Positions 8,873 to 14,189 of a stretch of 14,189 bases of DNA are shown here, one piece after another (positions within the stretch are counted from its first letter, which is position 1; every line of letters begins with the position of its first letter). The notes under the pieces are model-generated. The model had not been told where the DNA came from. It saw only the letters and a program-made list of their open reading frames with translations, and did no database searches. A program made the translations under genes and the position numbers. Source of the stretch: Acidimicrobiaceae bacterium (lineage in GTDB: Bacteria > Actinomycetota > Acidimicrobiia > Acidimicrobiales > UBA10347); assembly GCA_003485885.1 (NCBI GenBank), contig DNHM01000520.1:1-14189 (forward strand), written 5' to 3'.

Positions 8873-9301
8873 CTACGCCGACGCCATCGCTGTGTCGACC
8901 CATTGGCCGATCTTGGCCGCTGGTAACGCTCCGACTTGGCGACCGACTTCGATGCCCTGGTGATAGAGCACCATCGTTGGGATGCCTTGTACGCCGAGGC
9001 GACCAGAAACGGTCGGCTCCTCGTCGACGTTCACCTTTACGACTCGCAAAAAACCAGCGCGTGTGCGAGCGAGTTCCTCGAGTGCTGGCGCAACGGCGCG
9101 ACACGGGCCGCACCACGGGGCCCAAAGATCCACCAGCACCGGCATCGACGCAGTTGCAATGGTTTGGTCGAAGTCCGCGGTCGTCGCATTGGACAACCAC
9201 GGCAGGTCGGTTTGACACTTCCCGCATCGGGGGCGCCCTGACGACACCGTTGGTAGCCGGTTGCGCACGCCGCAATCGGGACAGTTGATTGTCTCGGCCA
9301 T
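8873..9301 (-). CDS. trxC: Thioredoxin 2-type protein with N-terminal zinc ribbon
   Basis: The 142-residue protein joins an N-terminal four-cysteine zinc ribbon (C7-x2-C10 and C26-x2-C29) to a thioredoxin domain. The active site is WCGPC (63-67) and the cis-proline is in GIPT (P108). This arrangement is that of E. coli thioredoxin 2 (TrxC), a cytoplasmic disulphide reductase linked to oxidative stress in that organism; the symbol is given by architecture, not proven orthology. There is no signal peptide. Its ATG falls two bases after the stop of the DUF302 gene and lacks a clear ribosome binding site, so translation is likely coupled to that gene. The pairing suggests the two proteins share a redox task. 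Confidence 0.92.
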   Translation of the reverse strand: MAETINCPDCGVRNRLPTVSSGRPRCGKCQTDLPWLSNATTADFDQTIATASMPVLVDLWAPWCGPCRAVAPALEELARTRAGFLRVVKVNVDEEPTVSGRLGVQGIPTMVLYHQGIEVGRQVGALPAAKIGQWVDTAMASA

Positions 9302-9815: not shown

Positions 9816-10991
9816 CTACCCAAAGATGGGGTTGGGTCCATCCGACTCGCGGTGGACGGCGGCAGCGACACCGTCGATGACCGCCTGCATATTCGAGCGA
9901 TGTTCGTTGATGCGACGGTGCAGAATACGGGGCTCCTTGTCGGGCATCGACGCGATGGCCTGGCTGATACCAGACGGGCCGGGCCCCAGAGTCAGGGTGT
10001 AACGAAGCCGAGTGGCTCCTGCGATCCTGGCCAGTTCGAAGCACCAACGGGCGCCAGGGTTATCGGCATCTGACGTGACCCACCCGAACTCAACGAGGTT
10101 TTCGTAGCGATTGATGAAACACGGCACGTCCCACTCACCGATCGCTTCATGTTTGTTCGACCCGATGAACTGTGCGCCAAGAGCGGGACCATCGACACCA
10201 TCGGCCCATCGGGCACCAACGAACTCAGGGCTGAACTGCGCACCGAAGTTAATGTCGGTGACCAGGTCCCAGACCTGTTGGATCGGCGCCTTAATATCGG
10301 CCTCGACGACGCACCCAGGGCCGTCGGCCAGACAGGCCGGATCGCTGGGTCCAGATTCCCAGGTGTGCGCGTACTGATCGATAAAGGTGATGTCGCGCGC
10401 CGGGTAACGAGGCGCCTTCTTGAAATCGTCGCCGGTGTACCAAGCCACAGGAATCATTGCGATCTGGGTACTGGTCTCGGGAACACCCAGCACCTCTCGC
10501 AACTCATCGCTCTTGCCCAGAATTGCCGTGGTCCAGGCGGTACCCAGACCGCGCGCCCGAAGCGCAACGCAGAAACTCCACACCGACTGCACCACCGAGT
10601 CGAACAGGCCGGGCCTGCCACTGCCGTCGTGAACTCCCATGATGGTTGGTATGACGATCGCTGGAACCTCCGCCAGGTGTTCCGCCAGATAGGCCGCCGA
10701 ATTCATCACTCGTTCTTGAGGATGGCCTGTGCCAGCGATCTTGTTGCGGGCGCCGATCATGAACTCGCCACCTGTGGCCATGTAGAGCTCGGCCAGCTGC
10801 GCTTTCACCTTTGGATCACGCACCACGACCCACCGTCGGCTTCCTTGGTTGCCACCCGAAGGAGCCTGCTCAGCGACATCGATGCAGTCATAGATGATCT
10901 GATTGTCGACAGTACGTTCGAGATCGAGCCGTAACCGCACAGCTCGGGTAGTGGTGAGTGCGTGATCAACTGACGAGACATCGATGTTCAT
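9816..10991 (-). CDS. Nitroreductase-SRPBCC fusion protein
   Basis: This 391-residue protein has two domains. Residues 1 to about 215 form a flavin nitroreductase domain, with the FMN-contacting TTRAVRLRLDL near the start, APSGGNQGSRRWVVV (43-57), and the C-terminal helix-loop LRARGLGTAWTTAILG (144-159). Residues about 225 to 391 form an SRPBCC/polyketide-cyclase-like hydrophobic pocket domain, recognised by VVEADIKAPIQQVWDLVTD (228-246) and the closing long helix INEHRSNMQAVIDGVAAAV. The usual role of the first domain is NAD(P)H-dependent reduction of a small molecule; the second may bind that substrate. The start at 10991 is supported by AAAGGG about six bases upstream; an open frame to 11033 is less likely. 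No frameshift or linker break is seen. The gene is divergent from the MFS transporter. Confidence 0.9.
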   Translation of the reverse strand: MNIDVSSVDHALTTTRAVRLRLDLERTVDNQIIYDCIDVAEQAPSGGNQGSRRWVVVRDPKVKAQLAELYMATGGEFMIGARNKIAGTGHPQERVMNSAAYLAEHLAEVPAIVIPTIMGVHDGSGRPGLFDSVVQSVWSFCVALRARGLGTAWTTAILGKSDELREVLGVPETSTQIAMIPVAWYTGDDFKKAPRYPARDITFIDQYAHTWESGPSDPACLADGPGCVVEADIKAPIQQVWDLVTDINFGAQFSPEFVGARWADGVDGPALGAQFIGSNKHEAIGEWDVPCFINRYENLVEFGWVTSDADNPGARWCFELARIAGATRLRYTLTLGPGPSGISQAIASMPDKEPRILHRRINEHRSNMQAVIDGVAAAVHRESDGPNPIFG

Positions 10992-11119
10992 AACAACCCT
11001 TTCGGCCCTTGGCCCTCGGCCCGTACTGGCCACATGCCGGCACTCGCCACACCGACCTTATGGCACCCAACCTCTACGTTTCTGCAACGATCGGACGACT
11101 ATTTCGTTCAATCGGTTCA

Positions 11120-12325: not shown

Positions 12326-12868
12326 TCAGGCCGCGATGAGTTCGTTGATCCTGGAGGTAAGGCCCTCGAGCCCCATTGCGCCGATTCGGCTCTCGGAGGT
12401 GCCGTCGTCGTTGATAAAGACAAAAGCGGGTTGCGACGTGATCCCGAATTCTCGCCACACCGCGATGTTAGGGTCCGCGATGTGTTCGAAGCCGTCGACT
12501 TCTCGTGACGTGATCCACTCCTGGAACGTGGCTGCTTCGTCGCGGCCAGCCACACCGATCACGGTGACATCGTTAGCAAATAACCGTTGAACCTCTGCGA
12601 CCGCAGGGGCTTCTTGGGTGCAGGTCGGTCACCACGGCGCCCAGAACCACAGGACAACATCTTGACCTTCGAACGAACCGAAGTCGATCTGCCCACCGCC
12701 AACCGTCGATGCGACAAGCGACGATCCTGCGGGTGTTGGCTCCGCCATTAGTGGCGAAGCCTCGACTGCTGTGTCGGCTGAGCCACCACCGCAACTCGTC
12801 ATCACAAGTGCACATGCACCGAGCAACCCACAAGCTACGCGCACAAGCTTCGAAAATCGGTTACTCAT
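12326..12868 (-). CDS. Predicted selenocysteine-containing TlpA/DsbE-like lipoprotein (UGA at 12629-12631 read as Sec)
   Basis: The frame from 12868 runs to an in-frame TGA at 12629-12631 and continues without another stop to 12326. Reading the TGA as selenocysteine gives 180 residues. A lipoprotein signal ends at C26 (LVMTSC), then come a Ser/Thr/Pro-rich linker, strand VVLWFWAPW, Sec80, and PTC with C83. A TlpA-type thioredoxin domain follows, with VTVIGVAGRDEAATFQEW, IADPNIAVWREFGI, cis-Pro P147 in TSQPAF, and VFINDDG. Family members have WCxxC here, so Sec takes the attacking-cysteine place. The protein would act outside the membrane as a thiol-disulphide reductase. A GGUC hairpin follows the UGA (see 12592-12608). 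Start 12868 is preferred to 12880 because TATGCT lies seven bases upstream. The alternative is a TGC-to-TGA mutation or sequencing error, in which case this is a pseudogene. Confidence 0.82.
12592..12608 (-). promoter_or_regulatory. SECIS-like hairpin with GGUC apical loop
   Basis: On the mRNA strand, CCCUGC pairs with GCAG-A-GG (one bulged A) to close the tetraloop GGUC at 12602-12599. The loop begins 26 bases after the UGA. Bacterial SECIS elements lie in the coding region just after the UGA, with the apical loop roughly 16-37 bases away and a G at the start of the loop. The E. coli fdhF element also presents GGUC to SelB. The bulge here is on the 3' side, whereas E. coli has a bulged U on the 5' side. 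Confidence 0.65.
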
Positions 12869-12875
12869 GGTTGAG

Positions 12876-12881
12876 AGCATA
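12876..12881 (-). promoter_or_regulatory. -10 element for leaderless selenoprotein transcript
   Basis: On the minus strand TATGCT lies seven bases before the ATG at 12868. The alternative upstream ATG (12880) is inside this hexamer, so it would not be transcribed if the promoter is real. A GCCTG-TCGG-CAGGC inverted repeat (12887-12900) just upstream could bind a regulator. Confidence 0.45.
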
Positions 12882-12952: not shown

Positions 12953-13438
12953 CTAGTTGTCGAGTAACTCGACCTCGACGAACGCCACCGGAGCGTCGCC
13001 GTCGTTGGCAACATTGTGGGCAACCCCTTTGCCTCGCTGATACGAGACGCCTATGGAGAGCGGCGCGACCGTTGTTTCGCCATCGGCTTCGATAGTTAGT
13101 TCACCGTCGGTGATAGGGACAACAACGTAGTCGTACTGGTGCACATGGGCGCCGGTTTCACTGCCGGGCGGGAACGTCCATCTCGTGACCCGAACAACAC
13201 CGTCATCGAGCTGTTGCTCAGCGGTCGCAGCGCCGCGGATTCGAGCCGCGTCGTAACCGGCCTCGTCGATTGCGGCAACAATCTGAGAGCTTTTCCCGCC
13301 TTGCACGGTCACGGTCCTGGCATCGATATTGACCTCGACCGACGCAACGTTGGGCACCTGGGTGACCTCAGCGGTAATCGCTGTCACGCAATGTTCGCAG
13401 CTGATCTCAGGAACCGAATACATCATGGGCGAAGCCAT
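12953..13438 (-). CDS. HMA heavy-metal-binding domain fused to cupin domain
   Basis: This 161-residue cytoplasmic protein has two parts. Residues about 5-68 form a heavy-metal-associated (HMA) ferredoxin-like domain with the metal-binding pair C14-x2-C17 (ISCEHC) and the usual VNIDARTVTV strand; this class normally binds Cu(I) or similar soft metals. Residues about 80-161 form a small cupin, with H98 and H100 in GAHVHQYDY and H141 in GKGVAHNV as likely metal ligands. The ATG at 13438 follows an AAAGG ribosome binding site; the frame extends to 13507 but that leader has no domain. The fusion suggests a metal sensor, carrier or metal-dependent enzyme. It ends 85 bases upstream of the selenoprotein start on the same strand, so read-through cotranscription is possible. 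Confidence 0.9.
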   Translation of the reverse strand: MASPMMYSVPEISCEHCVTAITAEVTQVPNVASVEVNIDARTVTVQGGKSSQIVAAIDEAGYDAARIRGAATAEQQLDDGVVRVTRWTFPPGSETGAHVHQYDYVVVPITDGELTIEADGETTVAPLSIGVSYQRGKGVAHNVANDGDAPVAFVEVELLDN

Positions 13439-13621
13439 CGTCCGACCTTTCTTAGTGAGTGACAGTGCACCGTAGCCAGCAACCGGCCACATCCAGTTTC
13501 GCCACATCAGGGCGGCTGAAACATGCTATTACAACTTGTCGCACGGCAGCCGAATAAGCATGCTGAGACTACCGGCGGGCGGCAGGCGTCGAGATAACCA
13601 CTCTTCGTGAACAAAATCGGC

Positions 13622-14158: not shown

Positions 14159-14163
14159 CAAGA

Positions 14164-14189
14164 GAGACAGAGGGAGACAGAGAGACAGA
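14164..14189 (+). repeat. GAGACAGA short repeats at window end
   Basis: Three copies of GAGACAGA (14164-14171, 14174-14181, 14182-14189) form a purine-rich tract that runs to the last base, so its full length is unknown. A further GACAG lies at 14154-14158 in the preceding hairpin arm. Confidence 0.75.

Follow-up and report, generated by a model that had tools for sequence, protein, structure and literature searches.

The gene at positions 12326..12880 (minus strand) of a 14,189-nucleotide stretch of DNA from an Acidimicrobiaceae bacterium (assembly GCA_003485885.1, contig DNHM01000520.1; the whole stretch is referred to as the window) very probably encodes a selenocysteine-containing, DsbE/DsbF-like lipoprotein that would act as a thiol-disulfide oxidoreductase at the outer surface of the membrane (estimated probability 0.9). 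The features of the gene are as follows:

12326..12880, minus strand: CDS of the predicted selenoprotein (DsbE/DsbF/TlpA-like), 184 codons with U84, based on translation with TGA read as U, Pfam and AlphaFold2
12794..12880, minus strand: predicted lipoprotein signal peptide, residues 1-29, identified by eye (basic start, hydrophobic core, MTSC)
12791..12793, minus strand: predicted lipidated Cys30 (Cys in at least 90% of 62 aligned proteins)
12629..12631, minus strand: in-frame UGA, predicted Sec84 (relatives have TGA, TGC or TGT at this position and no other codon)
12620..12622, minus strand: second active-site Cys, Cys87, codon TGC (column at least 90% conserved in 62 aligned proteins)
12591..12610, minus strand: SECIS-like hairpin GCCCCUGC-GGUC-GCAGAGGU, identified by comparison; the loop GGUC (12602-12599) starts 26 nt past the UGA
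12428..12430, minus strand: Pro151 of SQPAF (Pro is the majority residue in the aligned column), which we take to be the position of the thioredoxin-fold cis-proline
12328-12326, minus strand: terminal stop TGA of the selenoprotein gene, from the translation

The Predicted Protein

An earlier reading of the sequence alone had placed an in-frame TGA at the first Cys codon of a WCxxC motif, and this was borne out by the motif WFWAPW-TGA-PTC on the minus strand. The extent it had given (12326..12868) is right at the stop end but not at the start, as 12868 is the second Met and the frame opens at ATG 12880; the frame does continue after the TGA, but for 100 residues and not for 99. It was also correct in expecting gene callers to split the gene. 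Mechanical ORF calling halts at the internal TGA and returns an 83 aa ORF (12629-12880), and the two database relatives that were compared end at the same point: P0082 is cut exactly at the TGA (C-terminus ...VLWFWAPW) and P0100, a “hypothetical protein” with 28 member sequences, likewise ends at WAPW.

The thioredoxin fold proposed for the part past the TGA is supported by the agreement of Pfam matches (AhpC-TSA, 1.9e-15; Redoxin, 6.8e-15), the AlphaFold2 model and PDB matches, and a Pro occupies the presumed cis-proline position. The block-mean pLDDT of the model is 54-64 for residues 1-50 and 95-98 from residue 61, and both sequence and model place the protein in the thioredoxin fold (AhpC-TSA/Redoxin group). 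The active site is UxxC and not CxxC; the protein would act like the DsbE/DsbF/TlpA family without being a Cys-type member. A lipoprotein anchor is plausible from the sequence of the predicted selenoprotein, which has a putative lipobox (MTSC) at residues 27-30; a strict regular expression identified a lipobox in only 26 out of 90 records, in which the starts were set as far upstream as possible. The alignment of homologues (A1) contained 61 out of 107 sequences, fragments being left out.

Conservation of the UGA Codon and Selection on the Downstream Frame

Among 110 loci of relatives (L012-L121 only; the hairpin comparison and the tree described below used all loci collected), 114 distinct sites align with the in-frame TGA, and the codon there is TGA at 20 sites, TGC at 74 and TGT at 20, with no other codon observed. 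Orthologues either retain the in-frame UGA or have a Cys codon in its place, and relatives with the TGA show it at the identical codon in an intact frame, without the scattered damage that would have spoken against the sequence-only reading. An exact DNA pattern search for the TGA form of WFWAPxU-xx-C/U identified matches in 135 out of 397 genomes and 59 out of 203 genera of the order, including all six searched genomes of the source genus, and the reversed-pattern control gave 0 matches in 397 genomes. The expectation that a Sec form would be unusual in an actinobacterium is not supported by this distribution. The Cys form (TGC/TGT) of the same pattern was found in 18 out of 397 genomes, four of which carry both forms. 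Across the phylum, the stricter pattern WFWAPWU was present in 20 out of 396 genomes, 17 of them outside the order. The TGA form is also present in an uncultured Acidimicrobiales MAG (locus L059), so that the order is probably Acidimicrobiales or a neighboring one. The single match among viral contigs was weak, at 31% across 66 residues.

A quick tree with 207 rows (113 Sec and 94 Cys; 135 columns), in which many forks are unresolved and some branches are long, requires at least seven changes between Sec and Cys, four of them forced by starred branches, and suggests Sec/Cys exchange within a living enzyme family. Such exchange is described for thiol-based families in the excerpt of PMC1794560 on which we draw. 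A further 40 loci were taken by region from among the order-wide matches listed, picked as WAPW.

The open frame past the TGA extends over 85-106 codons (median 99) in all 56 genes of the WAPW-TGA type, the second TGA of five UxxU genes being read through in this count, and over 96-106 codons in 33 of the 34 other TGA genes, the last of which leaves its locus. A comparison of the window with its congener L013 gave dN 0.128 and dS 1.228 behind the TGA, and dN 0.308 and dS 2.445 over the 58 compared codons before it. Overall, 15 pairs were tested, of which one is missing and three yielded no dS that could be used for one of the two parts (the part before the TGA in two pairs, the part behind it in one); in every other usable value dN is smaller than dS on both sides of the TGA. 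Purifying selection acts behind the TGA.

A SECIS-like Hairpin behind the UGA

The published bSECIS model, as described in the excerpt of PMC13188914 consulted, places the apical loop 16-37 nt after the UGA, with a G in the first two loop positions and an upper stem of 4-16 bp. The element in the window agrees with this model, with a GGUC loop at +26 and 4 bp plus an outer stem. Of 56 WAPW-TGA genes, 53 have a GGUC loop that starts 26 nt past the UGA, and 48 combine a GG loop with pairing at all of the first four positions, a combination seen in none of 87 WAPW-TGY genes; with any loop allowed, the four pairs form in one of the 87. Codon and kinship are partly confounded in this comparison because the WAPW-TGY set is drawn mostly from named genomes (79 genes), with only eight genes from genomes with G handles. 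Synonymous recoding of the TGA proteins keeps the hairpin in a mean of 2.8 and a maximum of 9 out of 56 genes.

Covariation was judged by five measures over 53 distinct sequences, three of which exceed the shuffles. Pairing cells reach 88.4% (75.2% shuffled), two-sided changes amount to 42 cells (shuffled mean 8.3; none of 500 shuffles as high) and the covariation score is 0.389 (0.148 shuffled). The other two measures do not beat the shuffles: pairs that show a two-sided change number 4 (3.5 shuffled) and further pair types 12 (10.3 shuffled). Sliding the partner by 1-3 columns left 7-17 two-sided changes. A constrained fold of the hairpin has an energy of −11.8 kcal/mol. The window's own 45-mer adopts a structure other than the hairpin in a free single-sequence fold (z −1.1), and the hairpin is kept in 7% of synonymous recodings of the window's own element, so that the case for the hairpin rests on comparison. 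A generic bSECIS scan was rejected as a discriminator: in this GC-rich DNA it passes 16 out of 20 TGA and 73 out of 94 TGY sites, and 7 out of 11 TGY sites of the order. Comparison at fixed columns was used in its place.

A second class of TGA genes has a residue other than W before the TGA (mostly WAPH), and the GGUC hairpin is present in only 3 out of 34 of these genes. Among the WAPH-U genes (L125-L132, L140, L143-L154) the hairpin is mostly absent, and several genomes contain two copies close together on the same contig. Another possible stem is located near +34 in the WAPH-U genes (UCGAGC-AGUUC-GCUCGA, loop AGUUC).

Selenium Machinery and Its Co-occurrence with the UGA Codon

The source assembly (3.4 Mb, 572 contigs, 80% complete) was searched for the selA, selB, selC and selD genes named in the sequence-only reading. 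Two of the four were found above their curated cut-offs: selB (273 bits, cut-off 242) and, away from selB, selD (266 bits, cut-off 125). The selA gene is present as a fragment, its C-terminal half, which leaves the contig end (150 bits, below the full-length cut-off) and overlaps selB by four bases. No selC (tRNA-Sec) was found in the source assembly, where three sub-threshold matches were identified as tRNA-Ser, tRNA-Lys and tRNA-Ser by ARAGORN, and the tRNA-Sec of a congener with 100 bases on each side gave no match in a search run without a positive control. The missing tRNA-Sec is weak evidence of absence because the assembly is incomplete and selA is broken. All five congeners have a SelB match, and in four of them (G001, G003, G004 and G005) a tRNA-Sec exceeds the cut-off; none is listed for G002.

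The selD gene (L123 1405-3582, minus strand) shares its frame with an oxidoreductase-like N-terminal part. A TAA/TAG (not TGA) lies approximately 200 codons into that N-terminal part, and the SelD part is open.

Within the order, SelB was identified over the cut-off in 218 out of 397 genomes (217 in the strict class by E-values). By comparisons in which the Fisher tests ignore kinship, SelB (E <= 1e-60) is present in 129 out of 135 TGA-bearing genomes versus 113 out of 262 others, and with weak matches set aside in 128 out of 135 versus 89 out of 262. The genomes that carry only the Cys form have SelB in 4 out of 14 cases (three strict). SelB was not found in six TGA-bearing genomes that are 74-93% complete (G102, G170, G217, G298, G310 and G371), one of which, G102, does have a tRNA-Sec. 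A survey of 148 genomes for tRNA-Sec (one handle up to G148 is outside the sample) identified the gene in 40 of the 44 genomes that bear the TGA within the handle range ending at G148, those without a match being G000, G002, G121 and G133.

Alternative Explanations

The UGA might have arisen by nonsense mutation, or by an error in base calling, in a DsbE gene of the usual Cys type, as a single contig from a fragmented assembly and the two pieces returned by mechanical ORF calling would allow. Such an accident is extremely improbable given that the TGA motif recurs in all six searched genomes of the genus and in 135 out of 397 of the order, that only TGA, TGC and TGT occur at the site, that 85-106 codons remain open after the TGA in 56 out of 56 WAPW-TGA genes, and that purifying selection acts behind it. 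It is very unlikely, although slightly less so, that the lineage decodes UGA as a standard amino acid without selenium, through a reassigned code or a Cys-tRNA with the anticodon UCA. The tRNA-Sec that was not found in the source assembly and the compatibility of Cys insertion with a UGA at a Cys position both speak for this reading. Against it, the selenoprotein gene itself terminates in TGA, the stops of the 90 TGA-motif genes are TGA in 44, TAG in 32 and TAA in 13 (one leaves its locus), TGA at the active-site codon tracks SelB and tRNA-Sec, and a conserved hairpin follows the TGA. In light of the machinery, the conserved TGA, the selected frame and the covarying hairpin, neither a pseudogene nor a sequencing error nor a reassigned code explains the gene well.

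A different possibility is that the UGA serves as a regulated stop, with only an 83-residue lipopeptide made under selenium shortage and the full-length selenoprotein a minor or conditional product. SECIS-dependent readthrough competes with termination, and recoding of 30-40% is given in the excerpt of PMC4513850 consulted. The N-terminal piece shows no sign of a conserved function, and dN in the comparison with L013 is 0.31 before versus 0.13 behind the TGA, which leaves a regulated stop with a low probability, of the same small order as a reassigned UGA. The reading of the gene as one that encodes a selenoprotein is supported by the presence of selB, selD and the selA fragment and by the conservation of the TGA together with intact frames.

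UxxU Paralogues

In five genes, found in G005, G115, G238, G080 and G294, the second Cys codon is also TGA (WFWAPW-U-PF-U; loci L022/L269, L225, L226, L227/L270 and L228/L271). The two UGA codons are 9 nt apart, and all five genes keep a single GGUC loop, which lies 26 nt behind the first UGA and 17 nt behind the second; the bSECIS model (16-37 nt) allows both distances. The hairpin of L022 has a break in one of its four inner pairs. The cis-proline position reads QR in all five UPFU genes versus QP in three aligned UxxC genes. UxxU motifs in Prx-like families are mentioned in the excerpts of PMC2398784 and PMC13188914 consulted. We consider it an even chance that the Actinomycetota possess an envelope selenium redox system, in which membrane-anchored UxxC thioredoxins (in the order and in scattered other families of the phylum) are joined by an extracytoplasmic UPFU diselenide enzyme with Arg at the cis-proline position and one hairpin serving both UGAs.

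Genomic Neighborhood and Proposed Mechanism

Directly upstream of the selenoprotein gene and on the same strand, the window contains a heavy-metal-associated (CopZ-like) domain fused to a cupin (12953-13507, minus strand), and in the congener G002 a copper ATPase-like frame, identified by eye, takes the place of this gene. Nitroreductase-like and MFS genes like those of the window adjoin the selenoprotein gene in G002 (by eye). A copper role based on the neighborhood was considered and is not claimed because the seven other loci compared have nothing obvious in common. The window further contains a 405-residue frame that joins a nitroreductase-like part with a second, C-terminal part (9816-11033, minus strand; by eye) and has a similar counterpart at the corresponding place in G002, a thioredoxin with a normal CGPC site and an N-terminal CxxC..CxxC zinc-ribbon-like part (8873-9301, minus strand; by eye), and a terminal GAGACAGA-type simple repeat (14160-14189) that is possibly an assembly tip.

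The best Pfam matches (AhpC-TSA and Redoxin) and the best structural matches (DsbF, DsbE-like and ResA) describe an extracytoplasmic thiol-disulfide oxidoreductase, and the predicted selenoprotein is therefore assigned to this class. In the proposed mechanism, SelB with Sec-tRNA-Sec would bind the GGUC hairpin so that the UGA is read as Sec, and the lipid on Cys30 would keep the protein at the membrane. Sec84 would attack a substrate disulfide, or in the opposite direction be released from a selenenylsulfide, with Cys87 as the putative resolving residue; the roles of Sec84, Cys87 and Pro151 are those that we assume from general knowledge of the thioredoxin fold. A membrane protein of the CcdA type would supply the electrons. 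The genome contains one CcdA/DsbD membrane-domain match (contig C523), which adjoins a separate Cys-type TlpA, and a CcdA-type protein could feed both this TlpA and the selenoprotein. The reductase direction is favored by analogy with ResA/TlpA.

Comparison with Known Systems

UxxC thioredoxin-fold selenoproteins are a known kind. Two entries in the table of PMC13188914 share Pfam family and UxxC motif with the predicted selenoprotein, a “Redoxin family protein” (PF08534, UxxC) and a “Prx-like thiol:disulfide oxidoreductase” (PF00578, UxxC/UxxU). Compared by their table descriptions, which give no organisms and no lipoprotein, both entries are possibly the same broad group, and some of the selenoprotein family may fall under the “Redoxin family protein, UxxC” entry. 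The “UGC-containing TlpA” described in the same table is also a TlpA/ResA-like selenoprotein but carries Sec in UGC and not in UxxC, as does the TlpA/ResA-like model NF041054 WAxxUGC_long, which the predicted selenoprotein matches with 32 of 300 bits. None of the 17 NCBIfam models listed reaches its curated cut-off.

A search of the open-licence literature did not find an order-wide lipoprotein family in Actinobacteria, a fixed GGUC element or the UPFU form, and aerobic bacteria rarely retain selenoproteins according to the excerpt of PMC13188914. Should the present reading hold, these Actinobacteria make more use of selenium than has been recognized (SelB in 218 and the motif of the predicted exported selenoprotein in 135 out of 397 genomes), and the short GGUC hairpin is a direct handle for finding and testing more selenoproteins.

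ResA, TlpA and CcmG have the extracytoplasmic TlpA-like thioredoxin fold in common with the predicted selenoprotein (TMt 0.86 for ResA), which scores 46 of the 170-bit cut-off for ResA (NF002854) and 33 of 123 for DsbE (TIGR00385). Unlike these proteins, it has a UxxC site, and its gene is not beside ccdA, which is located on another contig. The closest known systems are the actinobacterial DsbF (3ios, the best PDB match, TMt 0.94 and 40% identity in the structural alignment) and DsbE (MPT53, 1lu4, TMt 0.89 and 34% identity), which are also the top PDB matches by sequence. Both share the fold and the domain length of the selenoprotein and have what we take to be a CxxC active site, from which the selenoprotein differs in its first Cys codon, which is UGA.
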